Assembly: GCF_026107415.2 (NCBI RefSeq)
Contig: NZ_JAPCHX010000004.1
Location: forward strand, 248,001 to 312,000
Source of the DNA: Microbacterium sp. MPKO10
GTDB lineage: Bacteria > Actinomycetota > Actinomycetes > Actinomycetales > Microbacteriaceae
DNA: 64,000 nucleotides
Direction: 5' to 3'
In this document: in pieces, positions 43,407 to 49,903 of the stretch
Layout of the letters: each line of letters begins with the position of its first letter
Position numbering within the stretch: position 1 is the first letter of the stretch
Translations under genes and position numbers: made by a program
Notes under the pieces: model-generated
What the model was told of the DNA's origin: nothing
Databases searched by the model: none
The model's input: the letters and a program-made list of their open reading frames with translations, nothing else

Positions 43407-44300
43407 TCAGTCGATATTGTCCGTGAAGTCCTTGAGCCACGGTTTCAGTGCCGGGCCGAGGTCGTCGCGGTCCATCGCGAGCTGAACGATGGCTTTGATG
43501 TAGTCGAGCCGGTCGCCGGTGTCGTAGCGGCGCCCGCGGAAGATCACCCCGTAGACTCCCCCGGCGACGTCATCATCGGCGGCCATCTCCTGCAACGCAT
43601 CGGTGAGCTGGATCTCTCCACCCTTGCCCGGCTCGGTGTGCTCGAGAATGTCGAACACCTCAGGCTTCAGCACGTATCGACCGATGATCGCGAGATTCGA
43701 CGGGGCGTCCTCAGTCGCGGGCTTCTCGACAAGACCGGTGACCTTGACGACATCCTCAGAGTCGGTTGCCTCCACCTCGGCAGCACCGTAGAGGTGGATC
43801 TGGTCGGGCTCGACCTCCATCAGCGCAATGATCGTGGCGTCACGCTTCTCCTGTTCCGCGATCATCGTGCTCAGCAGCGGGTCGCGCGCATCGATGAGGT
43901 CATCACCGAGCAGCACAGCGAACGGTTCATTGTTCACGTGCGCCCGGGCACGCGCCACAGCATGGCCCAGGCCCTTCGGGTCACCCTGCCGCAGGTAATA
44001 GATATCCGCGAGCTCCTGCGACTTGACGACACGCTCAAGCTTCTGCGTGTCCCCCTTCTTCTGCAGGTTCAGCTCCAACTCGGTGACCCGGTCGAAGTGA
44101 TTGCTGATCGCATTCTTGTTGCGGCCGATGATCATCAGCACATCCGTGAGGTCAGCACTGACCGACTCTTCGACGACGTACTGGATCGCCGGCTTGTCAA
44201 CGACCGGGAGCATCTCTTTCGGAAGAGCCTTCGTCGCCGGCAGAAAACGGGTGCCCAAACCGGCGGCAGGAATCACGGCTTTACGAACTCTGGCTGTCAT
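43407..44300 (-). CDS. galU: UTP-glucose-1-phosphate uridylyltransferase
   Basis: The protein has 297 residues starting MTARVRKAVIPAAGLGTRFLPATKALPKEMLPVVDKP, the nucleotide-binding and catalytic loop of GalU. LLGDDLID contains the metal-binding Asp pair, and VEKPATEDAPSNLAIIGRYVL is also typical. It makes UDP-glucose, the substrate of galE here and of envelope glycan synthesis. The start at 44300 has TACGCT (44307-44312) ending six bases upstream, so it is likely leaderless. The nearest upstream gene is the divergent 5-FCL gene. The longer in-frame start at 44387 would cross that gene's promoter. Confidence 0.95.
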   Translation of the reverse strand: MTARVRKAVIPAAGLGTRFLPATKALPKEMLPVVDKPAIQYVVEESVSADLTDVLMIIGRNKNAISNHFDRVTELELNLQKKGDTQKLERVVKSQELADIYYLRQGDPKGLGHAVARARAHVNNEPFAVLLGDDLIDARDPLLSTMIAEQEKRDATIIALMEVEPDQIHLYGAAEVEATDSEDVVKVTGLVEKPATEDAPSNLAIIGRYVLKPEVFDILEHTEPGKGGEIQLTDALQEMAADDDVAGGVYGVIFRGRRYDTGDRLDYIKAIVQLAMDRDDLGPALKPWLKDFTDNID

Positions 44301-44380
44301 ACCCATAGCGTAACCGTCCGCGCCCCTCCGGTGGACTCCATGACGCCTTCGACACGCGAGGCGACACCTAGAATGGGGCC

Positions 44381-44959
44381 ATGCCACGCACCTCTGACGC
44401 CGAGAAGCGGGCGCTGCGTGCCGAACTCCGCGAACGCCGACGGAACCTCACGCCGACGGAGCAGGACAAGGCCGGTGCCGGTATTCTGCAGAATCTGCAG
44501 TCGCTCGTGACCGCTCTGGGAGCCCGCTCAGTGTCGTGCTATCTGTCGACAGCGACGGAGCCCAACACCCGCCCGTTCATCGACTGGGCGCTGGGCGCCA
44601 GCATCCGCGTTCTCTTTCCCATCAGCCGGGAAGATGGTCTTCTCGATTGGACAGCCGGCGAGCAGGACATCGAGAAGGCCGGGCTCTGGGGTATACCCGA
44701 AGCCGTGGGCGACCTGCTCGGACCGAGCGCGATCAACGACGTCGACCTGATGATCGTGCCCGCGTGCGCTGTCGACGTACAGGGAACCCGGCTAGGATGG
44801 GGCCGCGGCTATTTCGACAAGACCCTGGGTTCCCTGGAGAATCGTCCCCCTGTGTACGCAGTGGTCTTCGACAACGAGGTACTGCCTAAGGTACCGAAGG
44901 AAGCTCACGATCAACCCGTCAACGGTGTCGTGACTCCGGGCCGCATCCTGGATTTCTGA
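44381..44959 (+). CDS. 5-formyltetrahydrofolate cyclo-ligase
   Basis: The protein has 192 residues. KRALRAELRERRRNLTP is at the N-terminus, and VPACAVDVQGTRLGWGRGYFDKTLGSL is the ATP-binding G-x-G-R-G-Y-Y-D signature. It converts 5-formyl-THF to 5,10-methenyl-THF with ATP. It starts the 5-FCL-fmdB-mscL operon, conserved opposite galU in mycobacteria. The start at 44381 follows TAGAAT (44369-44374) by six bases, without a Shine-Dalgarno sequence, so it is probably leaderless. Confidence 0.92.
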   Translation: MPRTSDAEKRALRAELRERRRNLTPTEQDKAGAGILQNLQSLVTALGARSVSCYLSTATEPNTRPFIDWALGASIRVLFPISREDGLLDWTAGEQDIEKAGLWGIPEAVGDLLGPSAINDVDLMIVPACAVDVQGTRLGWGRGYFDKTLGSLENRPPVYAVVFDNEVLPKVPKEAHDQPVNGVVTPGRILDF

Positions 44960-44974
44960 TTCGACTGAAAGACC

Positions 44975-45214
44975 ATGCCCACGTATTCCTATCGTTGCAC
45001 CGCGTGCGACAACGCTTTCGATATTCACCAGCAGTTCTCTGACGCCTCGCTGACGGAATGCCCGTCGTGCGGTGGTGCCCTGCGCAAGGTCTTCGGTAAC
45101 CTCGGCGTCACGTTCAACGGCACGGGTTTTTATCGAAATGACTCCCGAGCGGCGTCCAAACCGGTATCGTCTTCCTCAGCATCGGATTCCGGGGGAAGCT
45201 CCTCCGGCTCATAG
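44975..45214 (+). CDS. FmdB-type zinc-ribbon protein
   Basis: The protein has 79 residues. MPTYSYRCTACDNAFDIHQ and CPSCGGALRKVFGN supply two C-x2-C pairs of the FmdB (CxxC_CxxC_SSSS) zinc ribbon. The tail is a Ser/Gly-rich low-complexity stretch, as in the family. The function is unknown, although the mycobacterial homologue has been linked to protein folding or stress. It lies 16 bases after the 5-FCL gene in the same operon. Confidence 0.88.
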   Translation: MPTYSYRCTACDNAFDIHQQFSDASLTECPSCGGALRKVFGNLGVTFNGTGFYRNDSRAASKPVSSSSASDSGGSSSGS

Positions 45215-45228
45215 CGAGGGGGAAAACC

Positions 45229-45645
45229 GTGCTCAAGGGGTTCAAAGAATTCATCATGCGCGGCAATGTCATGGACCTTGCCGTCGCGGTCGTTGTCGGC
45301 GCTGCGTTCACAGCCGTCGTCACGGCGCTCGTCGACAATCTGATCAATCCGCTCGTCGGATTGCTGTTCAACGCCGAGAGCCTGAACGAGGCACTGGTCG
45401 TCACCCTCGCCGGTGCTCAGTTCAAGTTCGGCGCCGTCATCGCTGCGGTCATCAGCTTCCTGATCGTCGCGGCCGTCGTGTACTTCGTCTTCGTGCTGCC
45501 GGTCAACACCATGCGCGACCGGGCAGAGGCGCGGCGCAATGCCGGCGTCGTCGACGAGGATGCTCCCGTCACCGAGCTCGATCTTCTCACGGAGATTCGC
45601 GACCTTCTGAAAGACACAGACAAAGAGTCGGGCAAGCACGTCTGA
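45229..45645 (+). CDS. mscL: Large-conductance mechanosensitive channel
   Basis: The protein has 138 residues. GFKEFIMRGNVMDLAVAVVVGAAFTAVVTALVDN is the N-terminal amphipathic helix and first membrane helix of MscL. The second helix is at about residues 68-92, and the C-terminal LTEIRDLL helix forms the cytoplasmic bundle. It opens under membrane tension during osmotic downshock. The GTG at 45229 has GAGGGGG upstream. It is the last gene of its operon and is followed by a strong hairpin. Confidence 0.96.
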   Translation: MLKGFKEFIMRGNVMDLAVAVVVGAAFTAVVTALVDNLINPLVGLLFNAESLNEALVVTLAGAQFKFGAVIAAVISFLIVAAVVYFVFVLPVNTMRDRAEARRNAGVVDEDAPVTELDLLTEIRDLLKDTDKESGKHV

Positions 45646-45757: not shown

Positions 45758-45964
45758 CTATCCCCAGTGCGGCGGTTTGTCAGCTCGGAGCCGACGGTCG
45801 TTGCCTGCAGGGTCGTCGCCCCAGGCCTCATCCGTCTCGCTCTCGGGCCGTGCACGACCGCTCTCCGGCTCCGGATCCGTTCCCGGAACCGCCGGCAGCG
45901 TCGCACGCCGACCGCCGCGAGAACGCACGATACGGCGCGGCGCCGGCTCAGGTCGTTCTGCCAT
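45758..45964 (-). CDS. Small protein downstream of the DUF4011 gene
   Basis: A 68-residue polar protein. It starts MAERPEPAPRRIVRSRGG and ends NDRRLRADKPPHWG. The N-terminal half is basic and Pro/Arg-rich, the middle is acidic (PESETDEAWGDD), and the end has the N-D-x-R-L-x-x-x-x-P-P-H-W motif, which I recall from other actinobacteria in this position. The ATG at 45964 is two bases after the stop of the DUF4011 gene, so it is almost certainly co-translated. No enzymatic motif or domain is recognisable. It may be a partner of the DUF4011 protein; no function is known. Confidence 0.7.
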   Translation of the reverse strand: MAERPEPAPRRIVRSRGGRRATLPAVPGTDPEPESGRARPESETDEAWGDDPAGNDRRLRADKPPHWG

Positions 45965-45966
45965 GC

Positions 45967-48900
45967 TCACTGATCGAGAGTCGGCTGCGGAGCTGTGTCG
46001 AGGAGTGCCGCTGCACGGTCGCTCGCCGGCTCGGCTCGCTCTGTCTCGGGAGCGCCGACGATGGACATCACCGTGCTCGCGACGGCGACTGGATCGCTGA
46101 AGAGATCGAAACCGTGAACACGCAGGTAGTGCCATCCGAGCCGGCGCAGCACCTCGGGACGCAGTCGCAGCGACTCACGCAACGACTCGGCAGCCACCTC
46201 GACGTCTGATTCGACGACGATGGCGCGGTCGCGATAGCTGGCCACAAGAGCCAGCTTTCCGCGATACCCGATCTCCACGGACAGCCCGTTGCGATACAGC
46301 CGCTCGGCGAGGTCGAGCATCATCGGTTCGGCACCATCGATGACGGGCGGGCGGGGCGACCAGCGCGGCGGTTCGCGCAGAAGCTGCGCGAGCGCGGCGA
46401 TGCCGTGCTGCATGCGCTCCGGGTCGATATCTTCGGGGCGAATGCACGTCACGATCACCATGGAGCGTCGTGCGCGTGTCATCCCGACGGCAAGTAAACG
46501 GTCTCCCCCTGGTTCACCGAGCGTGCCAAAGGTCGAGAGGACGCGTCCGTGCGGGGTGACACCATAGCCGAGCGAGAAGATCACACGGTCACGGCTCTCG
46601 GCCACAGACTGCTCGAGGGTGAGCACCGTGAACGGCTCGGACCTCTCGCGCAGAATGAAGTCGGCCAGGTCGGATCGCCGGGCGAACGCGGCGAGCACGG
46701 ACTGCTGAACACGCGTCGCGTGACGCTGGCTCGCCGTGATCACCATGAGAGACTCACGCGGCCGGTTCGTGGCGTGCTCAAGCACGAGATTCACCACGCG
46801 GACAACTTCTGGATCGACCGACTCGACGGTTCCCGTGTCGGGGTCCGGCATTCCGTGGCCGTTCGACACGTAATCGAGAGTCAGGCTGCCGTGCCCGAGG
46901 AACGAACCGGCCCACGGCAGTGAATCGATCTCACCGCCGTAGAAGCGCTGGTTCACGAGCTCGGCCAGGTCCTCCCCGCCAGCACGGTAACTGCGCGTGA
47001 GCGTCAGCCCGGGCAGCAGATCGGAGAGTCGGGCCAGAGCAGAGTCGGCGTGACGGGTTTCGACGTCTTCGGCGAGAGCGGCGTCGGATGCCGAATCCGA
47101 TACCGCCGTGTGGAAGGGAGTCGGGCTTTGCGTCACAGTGTCGCCGAAGGCCACAACCTGCTTCGCCCGCCTGATCGCGCCCACGTTCTCGGCAATCGTT
47201 GACGCGCCCGCATCCACGAGGAAGACGGCGTCAAAGCGGATGCTGTCGGGAATCTGCGGCACCTCGTAGGGCGAGGTGAGCCAGACGGGCGACAGCGCAC
47301 GCGAGAGATGCGGAGCCACGCTCTCGAGCTCACGCGGGGTCACACGCGGCACCGTCTTCAGCAGTGATCGCAAGTCGCGTGCTTCCTCCGGCCAGTCGAC
47401 GAGTCCGATCCGCCAGGTCTCCGCGAGCATGGCGGCGAGCAGCGGACCTGACGCCGAGGCGTGTGCTTCGTCGACAAGTCGGAAGTCGGATTCGAGCCGG
47501 TCGATGACCTTGGTATTGGCTCCCAGCAGCGACTTGTCGTTCGCGAGCGAGTATTCAAGAGCGGACTGCCACCACGCGAGCTCCAGCTCGTCGGCAACGC
47601 GGTCGGCGGGAACGTGCCGGTTCGACAGGTCGGTGAGCAGCGGGGTGAGTCCGAGTTCGCGCAGCTCTGTGATCAGCGTGGTGCGCTCCTGCAGGTTCTC
47701 CATCACTGTCGACTCAGCAGCCAAACCGGACATGACCCGCACAAGGGAACGGATCGGCAGAGCAGAGAGGCTGTTGTCGTGGTCCGTGCGCCCCAGCGGA
47801 GCATCGAGCTCGGCCAGGTCGGCGACGACCTTCTGGTGAGCTACGTGAACGTCGGCGATTCCCAACGGCACCTCGGGCGCGATGCCGGAGTCGACGTAGC
47901 GCTGCAGGAGAATCCGTTGCTGTTGGATGCGGCGCAGCGACGCGTTCATGTCGGCGATGTGCACGCCGGGGCGCACATACTCACGTGCCAGCTTGCGCAG
48001 ACGACGGCGGTTTCCGCTCGACATGCTTCCGGATTCGCGGCGGCCGCCCGTCGCGGCGATCAGCTCGGAGAGCGACCTGTCGAAGACGGCGGGGACGAAC
48101 TTATCGAGAGTCTCGCGGATGTCGAGCATGAGGCGCAGGTAGACGCCGAGCTCGTCGATGCTCTCGAACGGGCGCATCCGCGTCTGACCCACCAGCTCGT
48201 ATGCGCGTTCGAGGAGTCGCGGCAGATCCGTGTGGTTGATGCGCTTGGCGAGTTCGTGCGCCTTTTTGGCTTCGGGCGTTGTCGAAAAGTTTGCACCGTA
48301 CCAGGGCGAATCATCGGGACCGTATTGGAACTCACCGAGGGAGGCGGCCTGCGCGAGCGACTCGGCGACGGCGGTGCGGTCGGTCGATAGTTTCGCGAGA
48401 GATTCGTAGCTGAGGCGCGCCGTTGTCGATGGCGGCGTTGGCCGGTTTGACAGCGCCGTCAGGGCGCTCAGCATGTCAGAGACGGTGACACCGAGCGCCG
48501 GGTCCCGCTTGGCGAGCCCGGACCGATAGTCGAGAAGCACCTTCCGCAACCGCACGAGAGCGTCGTCGATCTCGGTGACCTTTGGGTTCTCTGCTTTCTC
48601 ATTGCGCGAGATCGCCTGAATGAGATCGCGCCTGAGTGTTCGCGGGTGCGCGGCGACTCCGTGCAGCCCGACTCCGCCGAGTCGATGCCGGATGCCGTCA
48701 AGCGTCGACGTGCGCGGGCCGACGACGAGCACGCGTTTGTGATTCGAGACGAGCGCACCGATCGCGTTGACGATCGTCTGCGTGCCTCCGGTACCAGGGA
48801 GCGTGGAGACGACGACCGACTGTCCCTCCGTGATCTGTGCGATCACGTTCTCCTGCTCGGAATCCGAGTCGAGCAGCAGGGTGTCCGTGGACGGGCTGCG

Positions 48901-49731
48901 CTCGTCAGATCCAATCGCGTCGACGAACGCTGTTCCCGACTCGAGAAGTCGGCGGGCGCTGGCGTTGCCGGCGAGAGCGTCGAGAACCGGGTGGTCGAGC
49001 TCTGCGGCATCCCGCTCCATGGCGGCGCCGACGGCGCAGAACGATGACACGACGAGGCGCGGCTGAACGTTGAACCAGTCGAGGTGGCCGGTGAGGTTGC
49101 GCAGGCTGTCGATGACCGGCTGCGGCTTGAAGACGCCTTCAGACATGGCCAGCGCTTCAAAGGCACGGGCATCCAGGTGAATGTCGAACTGGTCCTCGAG
49201 TGCGCGCGCCAACTCAGGATTGAGCTCGATCGATCCGGTGAGCTTGAGTTCGTAGTCGTTGCCATAGCGACGAATCGCGAGTGGGCGCAGCAGAACAGGT
49301 GCGCAGAAGTTCTCGCCGCCGTGGCGCCAGTGGGCCAGTCCGACCGCGAGATGCACAGCCTCGAGGCCGCGAACCGTGCGCAGCTCGATGCCCTTCGTGG
49401 TGATGAGGTCGGCGGCGGCGCGAGCCGATCGCAGAGCGACATCGTCACGGATCAGGTTGGACAACAACGTGGAGTTACCTGTGATGAACTGCGGAAGGCT
49501 GCCGGGGTGCGCGGCGCTCAGTTCAATGCGGTATTCGCGCTCGTCGTCGAAGTGCAGAAGCGGCGAAGTTCCGCCCGTCTCAGCGAGATCCTCACGCCAA
49601 CGCTGCCACTCGTCGTCTGCCACGTTTCCCATTTCGACTGAGGGATCTCCCATGGAAATCTGCTGCGGCTGCGTCACGTTCGGAGCGAGCTCAAGCGACG
49701 GGTTGTCGCCCGACACTGCTCTCTCAGTCAT
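45967..49731 (-). CDS. DUF4011-type SF1 helicase-like protein with degenerate motifs
   Basis: The protein has 1254 residues. The middle and C-terminal thirds have the order of an AAA_11/AAA_12 superfamily 1 helicase. The motif I region (313-317) reads GTGGT, with Gly where the Walker A Lys belongs. The motif II region near residue 840 reads LVDAGAS, without the DE pair. GDTVTQSPTP replaces motif III. Motif VI (VGMTRARRSMVIV, about 1085) is kept. The last 100 residues (EIGYRGKLALVASYRD, then LRRLGWHYLRVHGFDLFSDP) resemble the REase_MTES_1575 nuclease fold but lack an obvious PD-D/ExK triad. The ATG at 49731 has GGAGG nine bases upstream. A 68-residue gene follows at two bases. Confidence 0.78.
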   Translation of the reverse strand: MTERAVSGDNPSLELAPNVTQPQQISMGDPSVEMGNVADDEWQRWREDLAETGGTSPLLHFDDEREYRIELSAAHPGSLPQFITGNSTLLSNLIRDDVALRSARAAADLITTKGIELRTVRGLEAVHLAVGLAHWRHGGENFCAPVLLRPLAIRRYGNDYELKLTGSIELNPELARALEDQFDIHLDARAFEALAMSEGVFKPQPVIDSLRNLTGHLDWFNVQPRLVVSSFCAVGAAMERDAAELDHPVLDALAGNASARRLLESGTAFVDAIGSDERSPSTDTLLLDSDSEQENVIAQITEGQSVVVSTLPGTGGTQTIVNAIGALVSNHKRVLVVGPRTSTLDGIRHRLGGVGLHGVAAHPRTLRRDLIQAISRNEKAENPKVTEIDDALVRLRKVLLDYRSGLAKRDPALGVTVSDMLSALTALSNRPTPPSTTARLSYESLAKLSTDRTAVAESLAQAASLGEFQYGPDDSPWYGANFSTTPEAKKAHELAKRINHTDLPRLLERAYELVGQTRMRPFESIDELGVYLRLMLDIRETLDKFVPAVFDRSLSELIAATGGRRESGSMSSGNRRRLRKLAREYVRPGVHIADMNASLRRIQQQRILLQRYVDSGIAPEVPLGIADVHVAHQKVVADLAELDAPLGRTDHDNSLSALPIRSLVRVMSGLAAESTVMENLQERTTLITELRELGLTPLLTDLSNRHVPADRVADELELAWWQSALEYSLANDKSLLGANTKVIDRLESDFRLVDEAHASASGPLLAAMLAETWRIGLVDWPEEARDLRSLLKTVPRVTPRELESVAPHLSRALSPVWLTSPYEVPQIPDSIRFDAVFLVDAGASTIAENVGAIRRAKQVVAFGDTVTQSPTPFHTAVSDSASDAALAEDVETRHADSALARLSDLLPGLTLTRSYRAGGEDLAELVNQRFYGGEIDSLPWAGSFLGHGSLTLDYVSNGHGMPDPDTGTVESVDPEVVRVVNLVLEHATNRPRESLMVITASQRHATRVQQSVLAAFARRSDLADFILRERSEPFTVLTLEQSVAESRDRVIFSLGYGVTPHGRVLSTFGTLGEPGGDRLLAVGMTRARRSMVIVTCIRPEDIDPERMQHGIAALAQLLREPPRWSPRPPVIDGAEPMMLDLAERLYRNGLSVEIGYRGKLALVASYRDRAIVVESDVEVAAESLRESLRLRPEVLRRLGWHYLRVHGFDLFSDPVAVASTVMSIVGAPETERAEPASDRAAALLDTAPQPTLDQ

Positions 49732-49903
49732 CTTGTCACGCCTCCACACACCGCCACACTATGCGTAAGAACCGTGAAATTCCGGTAATGTCGGCGAGTT
49801 TCGCGCAGTTTTGTGCCTGATCGCAGGTTGCCGCAGCGAATTCTGCCCTCGCGCCCTGGTTGAGCATCTCCGGAACCTGACCCATTCTGCCAGACTGAGA
49901 CGC

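Follow-up and report, generated by a model that had tools for sequence, protein, structure and literature searches.

A conserved Upf1-like helicase-nuclease of Actinomycetales that appears to have lost its catalytic residues, and its probable small tailed partner

Why should bacteria keep a protein with the body of a helicase-nuclease from which the catalytic residues have gone? The question is raised by a gene pair in a 64,000-nucleotide stretch of the genome of Microbacterium sp. MPKO10 (Microbacteriaceae; contig NZ_JAPCHX010000004.1), referred to here as the window, from the start of which all coordinates are counted. The larger gene (45967..49731, stop codon included) starts with ATG and encodes 1254 residues arranged as a DUF4011 region, a superfamily 1 (SF1) helicase fold and a Vsr-like restriction endonuclease fold; if translation began instead at a GTG at 49749, the protein would have 1260. 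The smaller gene (45758..45964, stop codon included) encodes a 68-residue protein. A preliminary description of this DNA had placed the pair at 45758-49731, with the small open reading frame starting two bases past the stop of the large one, and both points are borne out (the junction reads TGA-GC-ATG), with the refinement that both genes, and hence all features within them, lie on the minus strand.

A Upf1-like SF1 helicase is still recognizable in the fold of the large protein and in the order of its motifs, and parts of the active site survive, among them the Q-motif glutamine and the arginines of motif VI (TRARRS, residues 1085-1090, 46462..46479). In place of the Walker A signature GxGK[ST] it has PGTGGTQT (residues 312-319, 48775..48798), with Gly316 (48784-48786) at the position of the lysine. 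Its Walker B motif is VDAGAS (residues 839-844, 47200..47217) where active relatives have FDEASQ; Asp840 is kept and the catalytic glutamate is replaced by Ala841. Comparison with active relatives, motif by motif, reveals that AEKRAA of motif Ia has become GPRTST, that GDERQLPPT of motif III has become GDTVTQSPT (within VAFGDTVTQSP, residues 860-870, 47122..47154), and that QGDE of motif V has become VAES. The earlier reading of motif I as GTGGT, motif II as devoid of DE, motif III as altered and motif VI as intact is thus confirmed.

None of the approximately 120 Microbacteriaceae orthologues read has the Walker lysine. The preliminary description had stated that the degenerate motif I persists in this family, which is correct, and had asked whether the glycine itself is fixed, which it is not: the lysine is absent throughout these orthologues, and the position is occupied by G, A, S, R, L, V, I or Y. 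Around this variable position the loop PG[TS]GxTQT is retained (23 Microbacteriaceae rows). Several other families that share the locus and the partner have had the loop destroyed altogether (PGVDVPAT, PGSSSIET, SGRNGVSS). A normal GKT in a sister genus had been named as evidence that would speak against functional degeneration, and none was found among the Microbacteriaceae genera examined; the canonical orthologues that do occur at the same locus in two other families serve to date the loss and do not refute it. Because identical losses are present in every Microbacteriaceae orthologue examined, together with strong selection on the coding sequence, the changes are not attributable to chance, and the death of the helicase as an enzyme is well supported by the sequence comparisons.

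The distribution of the gene is that of a core component. With the large protein as query, a match was obtained in all 59 relatives searched (53 genera), and each Microbacteriaceae genome, including those of only 0.9-1.4 Mb, has one full-length orthologue, the copy in one genome (G025) being split across contig ends. A family profile finds a match, in some cases weak, in 146 of 149 genomes of Actinomycetales, and in 31 of 248 from a phylum-wide sample, where the matches include members of the order and the remainder are mostly weak or of a longer paralogue type. The gene is single-copy in its own genome, where a search with the large protein found no paralogue, and it is syntenic across the order with galU, the 5-formyltetrahydrofolate cyclo-ligase gene (5-FCL), fmdB and mscL, rather than patchily placed in the manner of a defence island. 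Identity of the large protein across Microbacteriaceae ranges from 47 to 92%. Within the genus, the ratio of nonsynonymous to synonymous substitution (dN/dS; Nei-Gojobori method) is 0.03-0.12 for the large gene and 0.035-0.24 for the small one, values that are rough since synonymous sites are near saturation. A conserved function independent of enzyme activity is accordingly well supported, and the selected non-enzymatic role suggested beforehand agrees with this lineage-wide catalytic loss under purifying selection.

The fold of the large protein has outlasted its motifs. An AlphaFold2 model of residues 41-1240 (predicted local distance difference test score (pLDDT) 87; predicted template modelling score 0.76) contains the tandem RecA-like helicase fold, and its top structural matches are Upf1 (Z 19.8, root mean square deviation 4.7, 511 residues aligned), Dna2 (Z 19.5) and IGHMBP2 (Z 19.4). 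The likeness to these SF1B helicases lies in the core fold; the difference is that the Walker A lysine, the Walker B glutamate and the residues of motifs III and V are absent here. A sequence search found no relative among solved structures. At the level of Pfam, the large protein gives only sub-threshold matches, to DUF4011 (residues 121-175, 49207..49371; 16.5 against a cut-off of 22.2 bits), AAA_11, AAA_12 and the Vsr-like MTES_1575 family, all four of which a canonical orthologue matches above cut-off. Two of the canonical proteins (L039 and L040) carry, after the nuclease, an extra C-terminal helical segment of DUF3320/winged helix-turn-helix-like appearance that is absent from the Microbacteriaceae form.

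The canonical proteins also indicate where the degenerate form came from. In families f5 and f18, a protein with canonical GKS/GKT and DEAS motifs is encoded at the same locus, beside mscL, and with the same partner tail. In the more careful of two trees, built with the motif columns removed (a quick tree of 111 rows was also made), f5 and f18 group together (99/96), and their sister group is formed by the degenerate proteins, which make up a clade of their own (100/99); the outgroups are canonical proteins. On this tree the state of the lysine changes twice, once before the degenerate clade diversified and once inside f18. The second change corresponds to an independent loss in three f18 loci (L081, L239 and L240; PGTGVTQV and ILEAS), in which a partner ending in PPHWE is still found downstream. 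A tree of RpoB and RpoC places f5 and f18 in the unresolved base of the order and does not reject a single degenerate clade (approximately unbiased test, p-AU 0.15). This comparison of sequences shows that the degenerate form descends from an active-looking helicase-nuclease encoded at this very locus. The simplest history, although it is not proven, has a single ancient loss, inherited by most families from their common ancestor, and a second one later on.

The nuclease appears to have followed a course of its own. The Vsr-like fold spans residues ~1137-1226 (46054..46323) and is of a domain type first described in MTES_1575 of Microbacterium testaceum, which is another protein, one of the longer kind with ~2160 residues (PMC3710099). 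The large protein scores 20.5 bits against the MTES_1575 profile, below the cut-off of 38.2, compared with 73.7 bits for a canonical orthologue. The aspartate of the ID(L/V) strand is missing (LALVA versus IDLAV in active relatives) and an E-x-D pair remains, so that the preliminary impression of a C-terminal domain with no clear PD-(D/E)xK triad is upheld. This aspartate is absent from the Microbacteriaceae rows examined and has also been lost in the group of f3, f9, f14, f20, f4 and f10; it is retained in f5, f18, f6, f7, f12 and partly in f16. Since its distribution differs among families, ATPase and nuclease were lost separately, the ATPase apparently before the nuclease. In f6, f7 and f12 (L036, L038, L046 and relatives), a dead helicase is combined with intact-looking nuclease residues, consisting of the aspartate-bearing ID strand and an E/D-x-DG pair.

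The 68-residue protein had been put forward as a partner of the large one, and this is very probably true, judging from conserved adjacency and repeated gene fusions. It has no match in Pfam, NCBIfam or PADLOC, and its recognizable feature is a conserved C-terminal tail, NDRRLRADKPPHWG (residues 55-68, 45761..45802). With the tail defined as PPH[WYFN] followed by six or fewer further residues, it is adjacent or fused to the large protein at 86 of 96 evaluable loci, within 800 nucleotides downstream at 72 and at the C terminus of the large protein itself at 14, compared with one match in 172 control stretches (two per locus). The fusions are spread over seven families and include forms in Rhodoluna and Aquiluna. 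The consensus can be written D-x-[RW]-[LI]-x-x-[DQE]-[RKV]-P-P-H-[WYF]-(G), preceded in 38 of the 86 by an ED..WG motif. Because the tail also accompanies the canonical versions of f5 and f18, as well as the lineage of the second loss, it predates the loss of the ATPase. In the Microbacterium sp. MPKO10 genome this tail was recognized at the end of no other gene; 15 other PPHW codon matches there were judged internal or in chance frames, and one of them (L153), in a frame not deemed a gene, ends five residues before a stop. The small proteins of Microbacteriaceae (L181-L238) have a further conserved basic stretch, RRRVTT, and a PG[ST]DPxP element, both upstream of the tail. In some loci the region between the basic N terminus and the tail is lengthened by low-complexity repeats, such as GSGGVGSGS in Compostimonas (L207) and HAGHAG (L051).

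What, then, might such a pair do? A near-universal, strongly kept gene pair without ATPase residues suggests a core function of the cell that has yet to be described. We propose that it is a core module of Actinomycetales with two components. The large one, a dead Upf1-like SF1 helicase-nuclease, would bind nucleic acids as a scaffold or sensor and need no ATP, much like the inactivated helicase domains of RecC/AddB; the tail of the small one would act as a docking peptide that links the large protein to some other component or, with lower probability, ties back onto the large protein itself. The mechanism is drawn by analogy with RecC/AddB and with the PriA pseudohelicase, and we give the proposal an even chance of being right. 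In Microbacteriaceae the nuclease is dead too; several other families have intact-looking nuclease residues, and in these the scaffold may serve to position a nuclease. The fuller picture, which we hold more tentatively and would not yet favor over its negation, is of an undescribed module for nucleic-acid handling whose dead scaffold arose a single time, in an ancestor shared by most families, and whose PPH[W/Y/F] tail, mobile between trans and cis arrangements, is read by a receptor present throughout the order. Several points weigh against these ideas. No third partner was identified. Ten of the 96 loci are without the standard tail, four of them (in f4 and f7) having a longer C-terminal extension and six having none that could be found. 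In a model of the fused Aquiluna homologue (pLDDT 86.8) the tail itself has a pLDDT of only 40-50 and forms no ordered docked element, for which reason no claim of docking is made, and the two structure predictions were built on modest alignments of 37 and 43 rows.

There are precedents for helicase folds put to such use. The inactivated helicase domains of RecC/AddB recognize Chi (PMC4824097), and the present protein resembles them as an SF1-type fold stripped of its helicase motifs and retained in a lineage as a core protein, the fold having been reused in RecC/AddB for nucleic-acid recognition. The resemblance concerns the state of the protein and is no claim of homology to RecC; a fold match to RecC/AddB was not established, the AddAB chain 4cej_A turning up weakly. 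It differs from them in being of the Upf1-like SF1B type, in combining DUF4011 with a Vsr-like nuclease domain and in having a small PPHW partner, and there is no evidence for Chi recognition. No RecB/AddA-like operon mate was recognized at the locus, and UvrD-type helicase genes are located elsewhere in the genome. PriA of Deinococcus radiodurans, a DNA-binding pseudohelicase (PMC4504706), offers another parallel, in that helicase motifs have been lost throughout a lineage from an otherwise conserved protein that retains DNA binding; the two proteins are unrelated, and the one described here also has a degenerate nuclease domain and a small partner of its own. A literature search found no description of the present family, a search on PDC-S37 found nothing, and a Bifidobacterium transposon sequencing paper held no usable mention. 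The pair is a near-universal and apparently undescribed feature of a large bacterial order, in which evolution has kept a helicase-nuclease body of about 1250 residues very long after its chemistry was removed. Dead and canonical versions that share both locus and partner constitute a natural experiment on an ATP-free helicase body, and the conserved tail provides a direct handle for finding the pathway.

The closest named profiles belong to defence systems, and a defence ancestry of the family is plausible from the sequence matches. That the large protein is today a domesticated anti-phage protein related to the ProA, Hhe and PDC-S37 helicase-nucleases, acting as an inactive-looking immunity sensor, seems to us rather improbable. 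They share the homologous DUF4011-helicase-Vsr-nuclease architecture, and they give the strongest named matches (NCBIfam ProA 2.5e-87, Hhe 2.8e-42; PADLOC PDC-S37 1.6e-93; ProA 2.7e-241 for a canonical orthologue), but the NCBIfam scores fall far below the curated cut-offs (293.8 against 1500 bits for ProA, 144.3 against 2000 for Hhe). Those profiles have ~1550-1900 positions and the long paralogues read have canonical motifs, whereas the present protein has ~1250 residues and is dead, syntenic and order-wide. An order-wide, single-copy and syntenic distribution, with retention even in genomes of 0.9-1.4 Mb, is that of a core gene, and profile matches alone do not make such loci anti-phage systems.

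The preliminary description had also allowed for a nucleotide-sensing scaffold. Its ATP-independence fits the lineage-wide loss; its nucleotide sensing finds no support as a family-wide property. A P-loop without lysine could still bind ATP or another nucleotide and switch conformation, and the glycines of the loop, Thr317/Gln318/Thr319, the Q-motif glutamine and the motif VI arginines are all conserved in Microbacteriaceae; since several families that keep the module have lost the whole loop, nucleotide binding is not needed for the shared function, and a non-hydrolysing sensor is unlikely. Much less credible still is an active NTPase with a catalytic lysine or glutamate supplied from elsewhere: several arginines near the core are invariant, but motifs I, Ia, II, III and V have been lost together, which is not a matter of a single residue, and the alignment has no conserved replacement lysine beside the loop. 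The loss of multiple catalytic motifs is also what a relic decaying under neutral drift would display, an explanation that the dN/dS values, the identity across Microbacteriaceae and the retention in reduced genomes contradict, leaving it next to no probability. More serious, if still doubtful, is the suggestion that the small protein or tail, instead of connecting to a third factor, plugs or stabilizes the large protein intramolecularly. It has in its favor that the tail is adjacent or fused to the large protein at most loci and to no other recognized gene in the genome, and against it that in the model of the fusion the tail has low confidence and is not docked.

The genes that adjoin the pair lie at 43407-45645 of the window and encode a galU-type nucleoside triphosphate transferase, a 5-formyltetrahydrofolate cyclo-ligase, an FmdB-type zinc ribbon protein and MscL. 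The last three (44381..45645, plus strand) are conserved convergent neighbors that serve as a synteny marker and stand outside the system. Parts of this galU/5-FCL/fmdB/mscL neighborhood recur in most of the sampled families of Actinomycetales.

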